From positions 1-38,719 of IMG/VR virus record IMGVR_UViG_3300038701_001240: DNA of 38,719 bases; one strand, written 5' to 3'. Origin of the DNA: a virus. The position numbers and the translations under genes are program-made. Below are positions 13,952-30,973 of this stretch, piece after piece. A model generated the notes under the pieces. That model was not told the origin of the DNA. It searched no databases and saw nothing but the letters and a program-made list of their open reading frames with translations. Position 1 is the first letter of the stretch. Each line of letters begins with the position of its first letter.

Positions 13952-14387
13952 AATAACTCCTTAAATTTCTGTTTATATAATGCATTATTTTATAGCTTAA
14001 AAAATATTAAAAAACAAATATTATTTTTTAATTCAAAATAACTTAACAAAATCAATGCTTTAATTTTTTTTACCCTATTTATAACAATATATAACTTTCA
14101 AAAATAAAACTCTTTATTTTCATACACTTAAAGCATGAAAAAAAATACAAACAATGAATATTTTTTTGTAAGGCATATATCCCCCTACCTACCCCCCTCC
14201 CCTCGCGTGCGCACACACTATAAATAAATAAATAAATATATATATATTATATAATTAAAATATTCTGTAACCCTAGTGTTTATGGGCTTTTGAATTTGGA
14301 AGTAAATAGAAAAATAAATACTGATTTTGTAAAAATAATACGATCAATAATATGTAAATATAGTATATTACGTAAACTATTATCTAG

Positions 14388-14407
14388 CTGTTGCATTTTT
14401 ACAACAG
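14388..14407. promoter_or_regulatory. Inverted repeat, possible operator
   Basis: CTGTTG and CAACAG flank an 8-base AT-rich centre. It lies about 35 bp upstream of the -35 element of the early promoter, so it could be the regulator's binding site. Confidence 0.4.
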
Positions 14408-14441
14408 TATAAATAAATCAAAATTAATTATAAGAAATCTA

Positions 14442-14469
14442 TTGCATCTTATATTTTTTTATATATTAT
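14442..14469 (+). promoter_or_regulatory. Probable early promoter
   Basis: TTGCAT, 16-base spacer, TATTAT, ending 36 bases before the first early gene. The 13-bp motif TATATTTTTTTAT (14450-14462) fills the spacer. Spacer length is the same as in the other three TTGACA promoters. Confidence 0.55.
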
Positions 14470-14505
14470 AAGAATTGTTAAACACGAACGAAAGGAAACT
14501 AAACA

Positions 14506-15955: not shown

Positions 15956-16131
15956 ATGATGAAAAGATCGAGCAGTTATTCGCGATCATTGATAAAGATA
16001 ATTTATGCCCGAACGCGGATAACCAAGGTTATAAAAAGACAGAAAGTGAATATCACGCTTATCAAAAAGGATCAGATCAAATGAAAGCATATATCCTATC
16101 AAAACTAGCGGAATCGATCGAGGATAATTAA
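15952..16131 (+). CDS. Unknown small protein (59 aa)
   Basis: A 59-aa frame starting in an ATGA overlap with the previous stop, opening MNDEKIEQLFAIIDKDN and carrying a YHAYQKGSDQMKAYILSKLAE helix. Acidic and helical, with no known motif. The coupling overlap and the absence of other coding in this space support it. Confidence 0.6.
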   Translation: MNDEKIEQLFAIIDKDNLCPNADNQGYKKTESEYHAYQKGSDQMKAYILSKLAESIEDN

Positions 16132-16155: not shown

Positions 16156-16770
16156 ATGAGCACAGGACACCGTAACACAGGACACCGTAACACAGGACAC
16201 CGTAACACAGGATATTGTAACACAGGAAATAGTAACACAGGAGACCGTAACACAGGAAACTGGAACACAGGAAATAGTAACACAGGACACCGTAACACAG
16301 GAGGTTTTAACACAGGACACCGTAACACAGGACACCGTAACACAGGAAACTGGAACACAGGAAACTGTAACACAGGATATTGTAACACAGTTACTCCTGA
16401 AGATTGCCTAATTTTTAACCGACCAGCAAAGCGACAAGATTGGTTGAATGCTGACAAGCCCTCTTGGATGCATGTAAGTTTAGTAACATGGGTTAGTGAA
16501 AAAGATATGAATGATAGGGAAAAAGACGCTTATCCATCATACGTAACAACTGGCGGTTATTTAAAAGCTTATGCAACCTTACAAGATGCTTACAAAGAGG
16601 CTTGGGATAAGGCGGATAAAGAGGATAAAGAAAAGACGTTTAAACTACCCAACTATGACAGAGAAGTGTTTATTGAAATTTTTGGCTTCGATCCTGAAAA
16701 AGATACACAATCTTGTGCGGGTAAAGTCGTAGAAATTGACGGTAAAAAGTACAAATTACAAGAGATTTAG
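16156..16770 (+). CDS. Pentapeptide-repeat protein, NTG type
   Basis: A 204-aa protein. Residues 3-78 are about 15 copies of a five-residue unit x-x-N-T-G (GHRNTG, GNSNTG, GYCNTG and so on), matching the Pentapeptide_2 type, followed by a unique 125-residue part with TPEDCLIFNRPAKRQDWLNA and a Lys/Asp-rich helix. Pentapeptide stacks fold as a right-handed four-sided helix and sometimes mimic DNA; the role here is unknown. The repeat units are nearly identical at DNA level (15 bp), so copy number may vary. A cGAAAGG leader precedes the ATG. Confidence 0.85.
   Translation: MSTGHRNTGHRNTGHRNTGYCNTGNSNTGDRNTGNWNTGNSNTGHRNTGGFNTGHRNTGHRNTGNWNTGNCNTGYCNTVTPEDCLIFNRPAKRQDWLNADKPSWMHVSLVTWVSEKDMNDREKDAYPSYVTTGGYLKAYATLQDAYKEAWDKADKEDKEKTFKLPNYDREVFIEIFGFDPEKDTQSCAGKVVEIDGKKYKLQEI
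16160..16392 (+). repeat. 15-bp tandem repeat inside pentapeptide gene
   Basis: A 15-bp unit with the core AACACAGGA repeats about 15 times with variation in four or five bases after it. It encodes the x-x-N-T-G units. The complementary strand also stays open through it, which is a by-product of the repeat. Confidence 0.9.
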
Positions 16771-23679: not shown

Positions 23680-23878
23680 GCTACAGAGCTTGCTAGAAAG
23701 CGTTATAAATATAGCGATAGGCATTGCCATAGGATTCATTGCAAACATTACTGTATTGCCTTTATTTGGCTATCCTGTAACGATTGCAGACGGTATGCTT
23801 ATAAGTGTTGTGTTTACGATTGTAAGCTTAGTTAGAAGTTATTTAATAAGAAGGTATTTTAATAAGAGGCATGGATGA
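23666..23878 (+). CDS. Small membrane protein, DUF7220-like (70 aa)
   Basis: A 70-aa protein with two membrane segments (residues 12-32 and 40-58), a short basic N-terminus and a basic end (RRYFNKRHG). Proteins with this shape and the SLLESVINIAIGIAIGFIAN-type first helix are common in phages, with no known role. The start at 23666 is preceded by GAGGT. It overlaps both neighbours. Confidence 0.8.
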   Translation: MAQTKLQSLLESVINIAIGIAIGFIANITVLPLFGYPVTIADGMLISVVFTIVSLVRSYLIRRYFNKRHG

Positions 23879-24645
23879 CATATAAAAGAAAAGAAACAAT
23901 CGGTGATTGCACTTTGTACCTAGGGGATTGCTTTGAAGTCATGCCAATACTGGATAAAGTTGATCATATAATAACAGATCCTCCATATGAGCAGTCTTTG
24001 CATGATAGTAAAAACTCAGCAAGCGCACCCGTGCGCTTAGACGGTGGCCCAGCCTTACAAGGCTTGAATTTCAATGGGATAGACCATATCCGACAAAGTA
24101 TTGTAGATATATCTTACCCTGCTTGTGATGGTTGGTTTATTGCGTTTTGCACTATCGAGGGTGTGGCTCGCTGGGCTGATGTTATTAATCCGTCTCCTAT
24201 GAAATATAAGAGAGCCTGTTTATGGATCAAACCAGATAGTACACCTCAGCTAAATGGTCAGTGCCCCGCACAAGGGGCCGAATGCTTTGTTACAGCATGG
24301 TGCGGAAAAGGGCACAGTAAGTGGAATGCTGGCGGCAAGCGTGGCGTATATACACATCTTACAAATTCACGTGAACGACACGGCGTGCACCCTACAGAAA
24401 AACCAATAAAGCTAATGTCAGAAATATTAAAAGATTTTACAAATCAGAACGAAACCATCCATGACCCTTTCATGGGTAGCGGCACAACGGGCGTTGCATG
24501 TGCAAAGATGGGGCGTAAGTTTATTGGAACAGAGCTTGATGAGAATTATTTTGATATAGCATGTAAGCGAATTGAGGAAGCATATAAACAACCTGATTTA
24601 TTTATTGAGCCGCAGAAAAAGATAGAGCAAGATACATTTGTATGA
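23875..24645 (+). CDS. Site-specific DNA methyltransferase (N6-adenine or N4-cytosine)
   Basis: A 256-aa DNA methyltransferase. The catalytic DPPY is at residues 35-38, before the AdoMet-binding FMGSGTTG loop (199-206), the beta-class order that also holds for CcrM. The VHPTEKPIKLM block is the usual family helper. It is shorter than CcrM (about 358 aa) and lacks its C-terminal extension, so its target site is not known. It could protect phage DNA from restriction or alter host cell-cycle methylation. It overlaps the helicase gene by four bases. Confidence 0.9.
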   Translation: MTYKRKETIGDCTLYLGDCFEVMPILDKVDHIITDPPYEQSLHDSKNSASAPVRLDGGPALQGLNFNGIDHIRQSIVDISYPACDGWFIAFCTIEGVARWADVINPSPMKYKRACLWIKPDSTPQLNGQCPAQGAECFVTAWCGKGHSKWNAGGKRGVYTHLTNSRERHGVHPTEKPIKLMSEILKDFTNQNETIHDPFMGSGTTGVACAKMGRKFIGTELDENYFDIACKRIEEAYKQPDLFIEPQKKIEQDTFV

Positions 24646-26273
24646 AAACACCACGTGATTATCAGCAAGCCGCACTAGATTCTTTATTTGAATACTTACG
24701 TGAAAACGAAGGTAACCCATTAATCGTTGCGCCCGTTGGCTCAGGCAAAAGCTTAATGATGGCCGAGACTATCAAGAAAGCGCATGAGCTTAAGCCACGT
24801 GCAAGAATTGTAGTGCTAACCCACGTAAAAGAATTGCTCGTGCAAAATTCTGAGGAATTAAGTGAGCAATACCCTGAATGTGATTATGGCTTTTACTGCG
24901 CAAGCTTAAAACAAAAGCGACTTCATAACGATGTTACTTTTGCCTCAATTCAATCTATCCATAACAAGATAGGCAAGTTTAATCGCGCGCCTAATTTGAT
25001 ACTTGTTGATGAGTGCCATTTGATAAGTCATAAAACAGATACGCAGTACAGGCGCTTTATAGACAGCGCTTTAGCTTTGAATCCTAGCTGCCGGATTGTT
25101 GGTTTTACTGGAACGCCTTTTAGAGCTGACACAGGCCGTATTGATGAAGGTGAAAACAGGCTGTTTGATGACATTGCTTATGAAATTGGCATTAAATATA
25201 TGATTGATAATGGCTATCTTGCCAAACCTATCACACCACAAGTTAAGACAAAGATGGATGTTAGCAATGTTGGCACACGCAATGGCGATTATATTGCAGG
25301 GCAACTTGAAAGAGCAATTGATACTGGCGAAATAACAAAAGATTGTGTCGCTGAAATTGTCCACCACGCAGAACAAACAAACCGTAAGAAATGGCTTATT
25401 TTTACGGCTGGCCTTGCTCATTGTGAACATGTTCGTGACGAAATAAGGCGTTATGGAATTACCTGTGAGATGATAACAGGTAAAACGCCAAGCGAGGAAC
25501 GCGACAAAATTATTCAAGACTATAAAGATGGCAAGATACAATGTCTTGTAAATGTTGCCGTTTTAACAACTGGTTTTAATGCACCTGATATTGATTTAAT
25601 TGCTTTTATGAGGCCGACAAAAAGCCCTGTTCTTTATATACAATGCCTAGGCCGTGGTATGCGTATCGCTGAGGGAAAAGAGGACTGTCTTGTTCTAGAC
25701 TTTGGCGGCGTTATTGATGAGCTTGGCGCTATTGACCAGATTAATATTAAAAAAAACTTTATTGATAGGGAAAAGGGTGAAGGCGAAGCTGTTACTAAAA
25801 CATGTCCTAAATGCGAAGCCATTTGCTACGCGGCTCAAAGATATTGCTATGAGTGCAGTTATGATTTTGGCGTTGCGAATATTCAGCAAGGCGCGTCTAC
25901 AAATAGAAGTTTGTTGTCTGAGCCTGAACCGCCAATGGAAATTCATGTCATGGGTATGCGTACACATAAGCACCATAAAAGTAACAACCCTGAGAACACA
26001 GCCACAATGTGCGTGACATACACGACAATGCACGGAGGCATTAAGGAATGGGTATGTTTTAACCATACGGGCTTTGCCAGAAATAAGGCCGAAAAGTGGC
26101 ATAACAAATTTTTGCCTGATTTTGATGCGCCATTATGTGTAGACGATGCGCTTGATTATGAGTACCCGACACCTGAAAAGATTATTGCGCATAAGGAAGG
26201 GAAATATTGGCGCGTTGATGATTATATATTCCCTGAAAATGATGAGTTAGAAGATGTTGAAATATCATTTTAA
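24642..26273 (+). CDS. DEAD/DEAH-type superfamily 2 helicase
   Basis: A 543-aa helicase of the SSL2/ResIII type. Motif I is APVGSGKS at residues 30-37, motif II VDECH at 121-125, motif III FTGTPF at 154-159, and motif VI QCLGRGMR at 333-340. A zinc ribbon follows (CPKC at 387-390 and CYEC at 401-404), then a 140-residue tail. Such phage helicases act in replication or recombination, probably with the nuclease and Sak4 ATPase in this module. Confidence 0.9.
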   Translation: MKTPRDYQQAALDSLFEYLRENEGNPLIVAPVGSGKSLMMAETIKKAHELKPRARIVVLTHVKELLVQNSEELSEQYPECDYGFYCASLKQKRLHNDVTFASIQSIHNKIGKFNRAPNLILVDECHLISHKTDTQYRRFIDSALALNPSCRIVGFTGTPFRADTGRIDEGENRLFDDIAYEIGIKYMIDNGYLAKPITPQVKTKMDVSNVGTRNGDYIAGQLERAIDTGEITKDCVAEIVHHAEQTNRKKWLIFTAGLAHCEHVRDEIRRYGITCEMITGKTPSEERDKIIQDYKDGKIQCLVNVAVLTTGFNAPDIDLIAFMRPTKSPVLYIQCLGRGMRIAEGKEDCLVLDFGGVIDELGAIDQINIKKNFIDREKGEGEAVTKTCPKCEAICYAAQRYCYECSYDFGVANIQQGASTNRSLLSEPEPPMEIHVMGMRTHKHHKSNNPENTATMCVTYTTMHGGIKEWVCFNHTGFARNKAEKWHNKFLPDFDAPLCVDDALDYEYPTPEKIIAHKEGKYWRVDDYIFPENDELEDVEISF

Positions 26274-26800: not shown

Positions 26801-27373
26801 ATGAAATTTGAAGTAAAAAACAGATACACAGGCAAAGTAAAGTTCACAGCTGAAATTGATTGTGACGAGAGCGCACCTTACGGTTTTAAGTTAGGGCTTG
26901 CTGTTAAATGGGGTCTTGAGAATGAGGCTGATCTGACAGAGGCTAATCTGACAGACGCTAATCTGACAGGGGTTGATCTGACATGGGCTAATCTGACAGA
27001 GGTTGATCTGACAAGTGCTGAGCTGAGATGGGCTAATCTGACAGGGGCTAATCTGACATGGGCTAATCTGACAGGGGCTAATCTGACAAGGGCTAATCTG
27101 ACAAGTGCTAATCTGAGAGAGGCTGAGCTGAGATGGGCTAATCTGACAGAGGTTGATCTGACAAGGGCTGATCTGAGACATTACAAGTCCGACCTGTATG
27201 AATGCTACATCCAACGAAATTACATGCAAATAGGGTGTGAGCGCCATACGTGGGATGAGTGGATAAGCTTTAACGACAAGCGGATTCTAGAGATGGACGG
27301 TAAGAAAGCTTTAAAATGGTGGCGTGTCAATAAGCCGATACTAGAGGCAATTAGAGAAAGTATTGAGGTTTAA
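26801..27373 (+). CDS. Pentapeptide-repeat protein, A(N/D)LTx type
   Basis: A 190-aa protein. Residues 40-125 are about 17 units of the classic A-[ND]-L-[TR]-x pentapeptide, which stack as a right-handed beta helix like MfpA and Qnr. Before it lies a beta part (residues 1-38), after it a C-terminal helix with [22 protein letters not shown] (Trp-rich) that is commonly seen in phage versions. DNA mimicry or gyrase binding is known for some family members; this one is not tested. The unit is a near-exact 15-bp DNA repeat. Confidence 0.88.
26925..27180 (+). repeat. 15-bp tandem repeat in second pentapeptide gene
   Basis: A 15-bp unit with the core GGCTAATCTGACA recurs about 17 times with single-base changes, encoding the pentapeptides. 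The reverse strand stays open as a by-product. Confidence 0.9.
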
Positions 27374-27441: not shown

Positions 27442-27517
27442 GTGTGGGTAGGATAGAGGCAATCCACTTGACTGTGAATCAAGACCGAGGTGGGTTCGAG
27501 TCCCACCCCACACACCA
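27442..27517 (+). tRNA. tRNA-His (anticodon GTG)
   Basis: A 76-base cloverleaf with CCA encoded. The acceptor GTGTGGG pairs with CCCACAC, the D arm closes GGAT/ATCC, the anticodon arm is CTTGA and TCAAG around CTGTGAA (anticodon at 27474-27476), and the T arm is GTGGG/CCCAC with loop TTCGAGT. Base 73 is A and there is no G at -1, the form known for alphaproteobacterial tRNA-His, unlike the G-1:C73 of most bacteria. It probably helps decode His codons CAC and CAU. Confidence 0.95.
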
Positions 27518-28502: not shown

Positions 28503-28621
28503 CTAACTACGTAGCATATAACGGCTTTGCGATGCCAATTAACGAAGGAGAAAATAATGTCTTGGACAAAAGAAGATGTAAAAATATTAATCGAGTTAAA
28601 GAAAAAAGATTATACCGCTAA
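28499..28621 (+). CDS. Possible 40-aa protein overlapping gcrA
   Basis: A 40-codon frame starting in an ATGA overlap with the previous stop, opening MTNYVAYNGFAMPINE and running 65 bases into gcrA in another frame. The coupling favours it, but a chance overlap is possible. Confidence 0.35.
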   Translation: MTNYVAYNGFAMPINEGENNVLDKRRCKNINRVKEKRLYR

Positions 28622-28985
28622 CCAGATAGCTAAAAACCTAGGCAATGGCAAAACGCGCTCTGCTGTAATTGGCAAGATAAACAGGCTTGGATTATCTAGA
28701 CCTAAGAATGTAGGTGCTGGAACTGGCCGCCATATGAAAGGCAAAGAAGCAAAGCCAACAAGCTACCAATTAAAGCATATAAAAGTTAAAGGAATAAGGC
28801 ATATACCCCTTCTTGATTTAAAGCGCAATGAGTGCCGTTTCCCTACCTCTTATGAAGGTAAGCACCTATTTTGTGGTAAACATGCTGAGAATGGTTTATA
28901 TTGCGAAGAACATCATAGTCTTTGCCATAGAAAGGCGCGCAAGAGACGGTCTAGCAATCGCGCTGACGGTTGGTCTCATATCTAG
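28557..28985 (+). CDS. gcrA: GcrA-family cell-cycle transcription regulator
   Basis: A 142-aa homologue of alphaproteobacterial GcrA. The DNA-binding front reads MSWTKEDVKILIELKKKDYT, then ANQIAKNLGN and TRSAVIGKINRLGL, the exact GcrA layout. The C-terminal domain keeps the three Cys positions: C-x-F-P (Cys93), FCG (Cys106) and YCEEHH (Cys116), with a basic end. In Caulobacter GcrA binds sigma70 and acts at GANTC-methylated promoters. The start at 28557 has GGAG seven bases before. It converges on the spanin gene with a 35-base overlap. Confidence 0.93.
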   Translation: MSWTKEDVKILIELKKKDYTANQIAKNLGNGKTRSAVIGKINRLGLSRPKNVGAGTGRHMKGKEAKPTSYQLKHIKVKGIRHIPLLDLKRNECRFPTSYEGKHLFCGKHAENGLYCEEHHSLCHRKARKRRSSNRADGWSHI

Positions 28986-29305: not shown

Positions 29306-29742
29306 AAATTATGCTCCTCTAAGAAAGCTTTGACATTAAAATTAGGACATGTCTTATAAGCACTAAAGTCGCTATGACCATAAACAGGCAAATCAGCGCC
29401 ATAGGTTACTCTATACATTCTAATCAATTGCGCTAAAGATTTAAATTGTTTTTCTGTGAAATTATTCTCAGGCTCGTTATCTTGTGATTTGCCACCGACT
29501 AAGCAGATTCCAATGCTGTCATGATTATGGCCTTTGGCATGTGCGCCTGATAAATGAATGCTACGGCCTATCTCTATGCGCCCGTTTAAGCGGATAACGT
29601 CATGATAGCCTATATCAGGCCAAGGTTTACTAGGGTCTGTAGGGCTTGGCGTTGTGTGCCATTTAGTTATCTCAACGACACCAATATCCATATTAGGATA
29701 AGTGTCAGCACAATGTACTATAATTTTTTTAATTGGCCTCAT
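29302..29742 (-). CDS. N-acetylmuramoyl-L-alanine amidase (T7 lysozyme-like endolysin)
   Basis: A 146-aa amidase_2 endolysin. Zinc ligands match T7 lysozyme: His10 (IIVHCAD), His123 and Cys132 in VYGHSDFSAYKTCP; Tyr46 in WPDIGYHDVI and Lys130 correspond to the catalytic Tyr46 and Lys128. It cuts the bond between the sugar and the peptide of peptidoglycan. The start at 29742 is preferred over an earlier ATG because TAGGAG lies eight bases upstream; it overlaps the phosphoesterase by 14 bases. No signal peptide, so a holin should release it. Confidence 0.92.
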   Translation of the reverse strand: MRPIKKIIVHCADTYPNMDIGVVEITKWHTTPSPTDPSKPWPDIGYHDVIRLNGRIEIGRSIHLSGAHAKGHNHDSIGICLVGGKSQDNEPENNFTEKQFKSLAQLIRMYRVTYGADLPVYGHSDFSAYKTCPNFNVKAFLEEHNL

Positions 29743-30943
29743 TGTCTTTGCTCCTAAGCATATCAATAGAACACGTATGACGTGCCACTTCACCATATTT
29801 TACGTGATGTATAACAGCTTTCATATCCCTGCCAGACAACCAGCCGTGATTATGTGCATAGCTGTCATTAGGTGCAAGCGTCCTAAACTGCTCCACAATA
29901 CATCCATTATATTCTTTTTTACTATCATGATGGTGATGGCCGCGGTAGAAATACCTATGGCGCGTTTGACCCCAGTCTTCTTTCATATCATTGGCCATTA
30001 AAAGGGCCAAGTCTTGGTCTTTAGTTTCATGGCCGTGGGTGACCCCAATAAGAACTCTACCATGGCGCACATAATGCCTATGGCGCGCATTGTCTTGTAT
30101 TTTAATACGTGGGTTATCAGCGTAAATATTATTTAAAGCCGCTCCAAGAAACATAGATGTAATGTCATCATGGTTCCCAATAGCGTTTATAACCTCAACC
30201 TCGTTAAACTTCTGAGCTGCATATTCAATACAAAACCGCATTGCCCTTAAGCCCACATTAATCATATCGGCTGGTCTTGATGCCATATCTAATACATGGC
30301 CTGAGCGTGTCGTTGTACCTGATATATTGTCTGCGTGGAAAAAGTCGCCAAGATTAGCAATTAAACATTTATTACTCGTTGGCGTAATGTCTACAAGATG
30401 CTTAACGGCATTACATAAATCACGTTCGGCAATTTCAAGGTCAAAGCTTTCGCCAACCTCATCAGCCCAGCAATACAACCCGAAGTGCGGATCGCCAAAA
30501 GGAATGACCGTTAAAAGATTATGGTCGGCCTCTGCGTTAACTGGCTCTATTTGTTCTATCGGCTTTATGTCTTTTACAAAACCGTCAATAATTTCTTTAA
30601 TTTGATTAAGCTGGTCTTCTTTTGCTTTATCTGTTTTAACCCATTGGATTTTGACGTTTCCGTCTGCATCTAGCAAAGCACTAGAACCTTTTAAAACTTG
30701 CCCCTCAGGTGTCGCTGTAGCAATGTTGTCTTCTAGCCTATCACGGCTTATAGACTTAATCCAAAGGTCTGGGCCAAGTTTCTTAACCCTTTTAATGGCA
30801 TTATTAACTGTTCTTGTTGATACGTTAAATTGTTCTGCCGTTAGCCTCTGAGCGCCATTAACGCCCTTTTTCTTTAACGCCTCATGATAATCATAGATAT
30901 CTTTATCATATGGCTGAGGCGTGTTGTTTTTCATCGTTGCCAA
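29729..30943 (-). CDS. Metallophosphoesterase with N-terminal helix-turn-helix
   Basis: A 404-aa calcineurin-like phosphoesterase. Metal motifs are GDPHFG (150-155), NLGDFFH (197-203), GNHDD (256-260), THGH (302-305) and a GHHHHD block near 335. The front 20-65 resembles a helix-turn-helix (GAQRLTAEQFNVSTRTVNNAIKR). Substrate is not visible; DNA or nucleotide phosphates are possible. A TTG start at 30943 is favoured because GAGGGGAG lies six bases upstream; the ATG nine bases on is too far. It is the first gene behind the lysis promoter. Confidence 0.88.
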   Translation of the reverse strand: MATMKNNTPQPYDKDIYDYHEALKKKGVNGAQRLTAEQFNVSTRTVNNAIKRVKKLGPDLWIKSISRDRLEDNIATATPEGQVLKGSSALLDADGNVKIQWVKTDKAKEDQLNQIKEIIDGFVKDIKPIEQIEPVNAEADHNLLTVIPFGDPHFGLYCWADEVGESFDLEIAERDLCNAVKHLVDITPTSNKCLIANLGDFFHADNISGTTTRSGHVLDMASRPADMINVGLRAMRFCIEYAAQKFNEVEVINAIGNHDDITSMFLGAALNNIYADNPRIKIQDNARHRHYVRHGRVLIGVTHGHETKDQDLALLMANDMKEDWGQTRHRYFYRGHHHHDSKKEYNGCIVEQFRTLAPNDSYAHNHGWLSGRDMKAVIHHVKYGEVARHTCSIDMLRSKDNEAN

Positions 30944-30973
30944 ATTAGACTCCCCTCGTAAGGTTGTTATCTA

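Follow-up and report, generated by a model that had tools for sequence, protein, structure and literature searches.

In Caulobacter, the DNA-binding domain (DBD) of GcrA binds methylated promoters and its sigma-interacting domain (SID) binds domain 2 of sigma-70, and open complex formation is stimulated (PMC7403470). GcrA proteins are also encoded by phages. In the phiCbK-like Caulobacter phages, the GcrA homolog gp222 was proposed to alter the cell-cycle state of the host (PMC3556154), and the same kind of host-steering proposal was made for gp5, the GcrA of the Agrobacterium phage Atu_ph08 (PMC6630229). The idea that a phage GcrA steers the host cell cycle is thus already in the literature; the role has been proposed since 2012, from a few large Caulobacter phages.

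The sequence studied here is a 38,719-base IMG/VR virus record, and the window is the whole of this record. Like the phiCbK-like phages, it encodes a PF07750 protein, but those phages are at least 200 kb in size, whereas the window is a 38.7-kb contig whose host is probably a low-GC alphaproteobacterium. Atu_ph08 also resembles the window in having GcrA and a DNA methylase in one phage genome, but its GcrA is 90% identical to an Agrobacterium protein, whereas that of the window lies outside the chromosomal cluster of the tree described below. The main features are as follows.

28557–28985, plus strand: phage GcrA homolog, 142 aa (PF07750, E = 3.6e-20; PDB 7ye1, 5yiu, and 5yix by sequence and fold)
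28557–28694, plus strand: N-terminal DNA-binding (helix-turn-helix) domain of GcrA, residues 1–46 (three helices, pLDDT 94–97; match to 5yiu)
28794–28931, plus strand: C-terminal sigma-interacting domain of GcrA, residues 80–125, with C93, C106, C116, and H119 (match to 5yix_B)
23875–24645, plus strand: beta-class N6/N4 DNA methyltransferase, 256 aa, with DPPY ... HPTEKP ... DPFMGSGTT (PF01555, E = 4.7e-26; fold of the CcrM catalytic domain and M1.HpyAVI)
24642–26273, plus strand: DEAD/ResIII helicase, directly after the methyltransferase gene (PF04851, phrog_16)
27442–27517, plus strand: tRNA-His (gtg) between the helicase and gcrA, containing GANTC sites at 27476 and 27498 (ARAGORN)
30948–30952: the one GANTC that is fully intergenic; it adjoins the start codon of the minus-strand gene 29729–30943, within its leader

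By gene content, the contig belongs to a tailed phage. To the left of ~13.9 kb, genes for terminase, portal, head protease, and major head protein occupy the minus strand. A plus-strand replication module (a primase with a Toprim domain, a RusA-like resolvase, a Sak4-like annealing protein, a Cas4-type exonuclease, the methyltransferase, and the DEAD helicase) is accompanied by gcrA. Beyond them, the minus strand encodes an amidase and tail proteins. The contig genes searched did not include an integrase, and no helicase-primase relatives were found. The earlier note placed gcrA "next to" the methyltransferase gene; the two are only a few genes apart, but the actual gap is 3.9 kb and contains the helicase, a pentapeptide-repeat gene, the tRNA-His, and three small ORFs. 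No close counterpart of the tRNA-His was found in collections of phages or plasmids. Two repeat proteins (16156–16770 and 26801–27373; NTGxxNTG tandem repeat and LTxAN pentapeptide repeat) flank the replication module. A 554-base gap of 21% GC (13952–14505) separates divergent gene blocks, and the sign of the GC skew flips there; it is likely an origin or the main promoter region.

Family, fold, and distribution of the phage GcrA

The gcrA ORF starts with ATG preceded by GAAGGAG, a good ribosome-binding site. The protein scored 73.4 bits against PF07750 (gathering cut-off, 26.9), with both ends matched, and a sequence search of the PDB retrieved the solved GcrA structures. Its score against the equivalog model of Caulobacter-type GcrA (NCBIfam NF050816) was 57.9 bits, below the cut-off of 280. 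A structure model built from 30 relatives (mean pLDDT 83.5) has two domains predicted with confidence, joined by a loose linker. In structural alignments with VIA-align, the DBD was superimposed on 5yiu with a Z score of 7.6 (rmsd 0.7 Å over 45 residues, 60% identity) and the SID on 5yix_B with a Z score of 5.9 (rmsd 2.1 over 46 residues, 26% identity). The fold of the GcrA DBD is a common Myb/SANT-like arrangement for which a Z score by itself is weak evidence, and the domain was called GcrA-type because of the 60% sequence identity.

Compared with 23 chromosomal GcrAs, the phage protein retains W3, R34, V37, G39, K40, R43, P67, C93, C106, C116, and H119, and the last four are 95–100% conserved in this comparison. 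The full-length homolog of 142 aa with three conserved cysteines that the earlier note had described is therefore borne out, with H119 as an additional conserved residue. Region 28557–28985 encodes a genuine two-domain GcrA-family protein of a kind already known from other phages. Caulobacter GcrA (5yiu, 5yix, and 7ye1) has in common with it both domain folds, the C/C/C/H set, and R34, K40, and R43, but the linker of the phage protein is shorter and it differs by N35S, W15K, W95F, and other substitutions. The changes from the chromosomal consensus are W15 to K, N35 to S, H42 to N, and W95 to F, in addition to those at F103, P114, and other positions. In total, 13 of the 43 positions conserved in at least 80% of the chromosomal GcrAs are different. 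Two of these changes, at N35 (recognition helix) and W95 (sigma domain), were absent from every chromosomal GcrA sampled. Many viral GcrAs also vary at the positions changed here. Because of this divergence and the low equivalog score, methyl-dependent DNA binding may have been lost.

A maximum likelihood tree of 89 proteins, in which the bootstrap had not settled, placed the phage GcrA among viral GcrAs, outside the cluster with the 23 chromosomal ones (support 92/87) and also outside a clade (98/85) of the candidate host order. Because of these positions, a recent capture of gcrA from that order is not favored.

In INPHARED, 33 records matched Caulobacter GcrA, 26 of which are Caulobacter phages. 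The GcrA of the window, used as the query, matched only one of 50,697 phage records (30% identity). In IMG/VR, at least 176 stretches fit the search pattern and encode a GcrA relative (alignment query), so the gene is common in uncultured alphaproteobacterial phages. Among cellular genomes, 142 of 289 alphaproteobacteria were matched by the window's GcrA, and PF07750 passed the cut-off in 1 of 274 gammaproteobacteria; judged by these sequence matches, GcrA appears close to class-specific for alphaproteobacteria. PF07750 also exceeded its cut-off in a control genome outside the expected range of GcrA, Sulfolobus acidocaldarius. Two Synechococcus phages (PP438432.1 and OM868079.1) encode a GcrA gene, which would be unusual with a cyanobacterium as the host; they may actually infect an alphaproteobacterium present in the culture.

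The methyltransferase and its proximity to gcrA

The gene at 23875–24645 encodes a beta-class enzyme of the N6_N4_Mtase family, as the earlier note had read it (PF01555, 92.5 bits; cut-off, 26.7), with the motif order DPPY, target region, HPTxKP, and GxGTT. It shares 56–58% identity with two enzymes of the same family, from Sinorhizobium phage NV1.1.1 and Rhizobium phage RHph_TM3_3_14B, and 50–68% with 24 IMG/VR relatives. No annotated gcrA is present in the portion of Sinorhizobium phage NV1.1.1 that was read. The putative DNA-reading region, KPDSTPQLNGQxPAQGAECFVTAWCG, is nearly invariant in the family, which suggests that its members may have one common target.

In the structure model (pTM 0.79), the loop after DPPY (43–66) and residues 123–132 have pLDDT values below 50. 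The top Foldseek match was CcrM (E = 4e-18, TM 0.71 by query), followed by M1.HpyAVI. CcrM reads the G with R44 and the T with R129 and W109, and its N124 is stacked on the C (PMC13092597). The CcrM kind of GANTC orphan enzyme carries a C-terminal domain of 83 residues (PMC10359602). The CcrM sequence used for comparison matches PDB 6pbd over all 358 residues and was aligned with the phage enzyme at ~25% identity. The two have in common the beta-class fold, DPPY, HPTxKP, and K193. However, the phage enzyme has S, K, Q, and C in place of R44, W109, N124, and R129, respectively, and it stops after the catalytic domain, without the 83-residue extension. Its score against the CcrM model NF050803 (NCBIfam) was 72.5 bits, below the cut-off of 830. 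The alignment agrees with the earlier suspicion that the enzyme is not a clear CcrM. The best sequence match in the PDB was M1.HpyAVI (5hek/5hfj), which is likewise a short beta-class N6A enzyme without an extra domain but is only 25–29% identical; it recognizes GAGG/GGAG/GAAG (PMC5173035). The phage methyltransferases with demonstrated GANTC specificity (PhiLM21, phi2LM21, phi3LM21, and PhiOC_p213; PMC5537653, PMC7139368) are adenine methyltransferases of alphaproteobacterial phages, as the enzyme of the window is predicted to be; the motif of the PhiLM21-type enzymes is NPPY/F/W, whereas that of the window's enzyme is DPPY. Because M.HhaII reads GANTC without a CcrM-type C-terminal domain (PMC10359602) and PhiLM21 reached this specificity by convergence (PMC5537653), the present enzyme may, by analogy, have converged on GANTC.

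Among 50 gcrA-bearing viral contigs, 15 carry a PF01555 enzyme and 7 a PF05869 enzyme. After removal of one near copy (n = 14), 5 contigs had PF01555 no more than 1 kb from gcrA (1.1 expected, P = 0.003) and 10 had it no more than 5 kb away (3.7 expected, P = 0.0008), under a null of uniform placement that is lenient since phage early genes cluster. HNH genes, used as a control, were at expectation (2/22 within 1 kb and 7/22 within 5 kb). The ResIII helicase, an early gene, was within 2 kb of gcrA in three of five confident cases, although the contigs are few. The proximity is therefore only suggestive of a real linkage in unrelated phage contigs, which may be new, and early-gene clustering could explain it. 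This recurring neighborhood is the one point that could open something new. Four contigs with the window's methyltransferase family carry gcrA on the same record. A methyltransferase at least 40% identical to that of the window co-occurs with gcrA in the window and about six contig groups (L015, L020/L021, L024, L039, L066, and L088/L092/L094), and in L039, L066, and the L088/L092/L094 group, the window-family enzyme is within 10 kb of gcrA. Enrichment of the N35S recognition helix in GcrAs paired with this family was considered and is unsupported (3/9 versus 11/75).

GANTC sites and the candidate host

The window contains 33 GANTC sites, against 95.7 ± 9.5 expected from dinucleotide shuffles (observed/expected 0.34 in a first-order and 0.48 in a maximal-order model). 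Codon shuffles of 54 genes gave 29 against 75.1 ± 6.7 (0.39, z = −6.9). The scarcity reported in the earlier note is therefore real over the full window. Its hand count of about 11 sites in the first 8.3 kb was exact, but its expectation of about 30 was too high, as the whole-window value of 96 scales to ~20.

The same note took the scarcity as avoidance of, or pressure on, the motif in connection with the two phage proteins, and this reading did not withstand the controls. In 20-kb stretches of alphaproteobacterial chromosomes, the median observed/expected ratio was 0.33 with a match to the window's GcrA (20 stretches) and 0.73 without one (18 stretches), and it was 0.78 in 14 gammaproteobacterial stretches. 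The medians were 0.28 for 63 viral contigs with gcrA and 0.26 for 16 contigs in which the window's methyltransferase family was present and gcrA was not found, and these two viral groups did not differ (p = 1). For Alphaproteobacteria, Gonzalez et al. 2014 (PMC3973325) reported that GANTC is under-represented two-fold or more and enriched in intergenic DNA. The chromosome and contig controls rule out a phage-specific signal in the GANTC depletion. Because GcrA-bearing chromosomes and gcrA-less phage contigs are equally depleted, the rarity is a sequence bias common to GcrA/CcrM-bearing alphaproteobacteria and not an effect of either phage gene, which removes a tempting but wrong argument about low GANTC in such phages.

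Only 1 of the 33 sites is fully intergenic (2.8 expected), so the intergenic enrichment published for the class is not seen in the window, and none occurs at a promoter position in its 11 larger intergenic gaps. The sites near phage starts are inside genes or the tRNA (the one at 16111 is within a 59-aa ORF), except that at 30948, which adjoins a start codon. GANTC-type phage promoters thus find no support, and the phage has the GANTC background of its host class without GANTC promoters.

Other sites are more depleted than GANTC: GGNCC (7 observed, 59 expected), CCWGG (2 against 37.6), and GGWCC (0 against 24). AACGTT was also missing (0 against 11), and codon shuffling bears out the avoidance of CCWGG, GGWCC, and AACGTT. 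Similar sets of low sites were seen in genome G164 (L178), in the sequences L007, L016, and L018/L019, and in a Pasteurellaceae prophage region (L148). The gcrA-bearing contig L102 (G630) has a single GANTC over 20 kb, where 90 would be expected, and a CCWGG ratio of 0.02, far past the class background.

The host is probably a low-GC alphaproteobacterium, judging from GcrA, the relatives of the methyltransferase, and composition. Of all genome stretches and viral contigs compared, G164 (40% GC) came nearest to the window in composition, with a tetranucleotide z-score correlation of 0.60 (next, 0.50). Its sampled stretch is depleted like the window, with observed/expected ratios of 0.35 for GANTC, 0.25 for GGNCC, 0.21 for CCNGG, and 0.16 for CCGG. 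In the order of G164 (142 genomes, mostly ~2 Mb), the window's GcrA was matched in 133 genomes. These data hint at this order as the host group, composition being no proof of a host. The terminase was rejected as a host marker; its matches are mixed (Pasteurellaceae, 53%; other gammaproteobacteria; Paracoccus, 31%), and the nearest are gammaproteobacterial relatives, pointing to other groups than the order of G164.

Proposed role of the phage GcrA

Here, we propose a mechanism that we consider probable on balance: a sigma-70 cofactor of the GcrA type that is directed to promoters of the host, accompanied by an independent methyltransferase, with the rarity of GANTC being a bias of the host class. 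From sequence and structure, we infer DNA binding, sigma-70 binding, the effect on the host, and the role of the methyltransferase. The N-terminal helix-turn-helix would bind DNA, most likely GANTC-methylated promoters of the host, and the C-terminal cysteine/histidine-rich domain would bind domain 2 of host sigma-70. Since the phage has no GANTC promoters, host promoters are the likelier targets, or the protein may work through sigma-70 alone. The phage-supplied cofactor would probably keep or push the infected cell into a replicative, S-phase-like expression state. Encoded 3.9 kb upstream, the methyltransferase would act separately, most likely protecting or marking phage DNA. The earlier suggestion that both proteins push the host cell-cycle programme therefore stands in part: GcrA has both domains and could credibly influence sigma-70 transcription in the host, whereas its coupling to a GANTC methyltransferase is unsupported.

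The absence of GANTC from the phage promoters also fits another reading, in which GcrA binds sigma-70 and aids RNA polymerase at these promoters. The sigma-interacting fold is kept, the recognition helix is altered at N35 and H42, and sigma remodeling is frequent among phages (reviewed in PMC7403470). However, the DBD is well preserved, including most positions of the recognition helix. A protein that only binds sigma would have no need for this, and we regard the sigma reading as unlikely. An antagonist, which would compete with host GcrA for sigma-70 or its sites and shut the host programme down, could account for the divergence at positions fixed in chromosomal GcrAs, but an inhibitor would need only one of the two domains that are present, and this possibility appears very unlikely.

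Two further readings couple the two phage genes. In a phage copy of the CcrM–GcrA circuit, the methyltransferase would methylate GANTC and the phage GcrA would read the mark. GANTC methyltransferases do exist in phages (PhiLM21, phi2/3LM21, and PhiOC), CcrM leads the Foldseek matches to the enzyme, and an N6/N4 methyltransferase lies within 5 kb of gcrA more often than expected (10 of 14 contigs against 3.7). Nevertheless, the enzyme lacks both the C-terminal domain and the four base-reading residues of CcrM, these residues do not occur together in any of the 11 methyltransferases that were read at gcrA loci, the phage promoters lack GANTC, and the helicase control is also near gcrA, so that early-gene clustering may explain the proximity; a copied circuit is thus quite unlikely. 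In the other reading, a nearby beta-class methyltransferase, whose recognition region is conserved but unlike that of CcrM, would mark a new motif to which the divergent phage GcrA recruits host sigma-70 polymerase, a writer–reader pair forming a CcrM-independent epigenetic switch in a set of alphaproteobacterial phages. We give this highly speculative scheme the least credence.

The small two-domain phage GcrA is a handy test protein. Single-domain forms were also observed: low-GC viral contigs (L093, L095, L109–L111, L116, and L117) encode 69-aa proteins without the sigma domain, in which the GcrA DBD is accompanied by a conserved tail, MPxYSFxKK.
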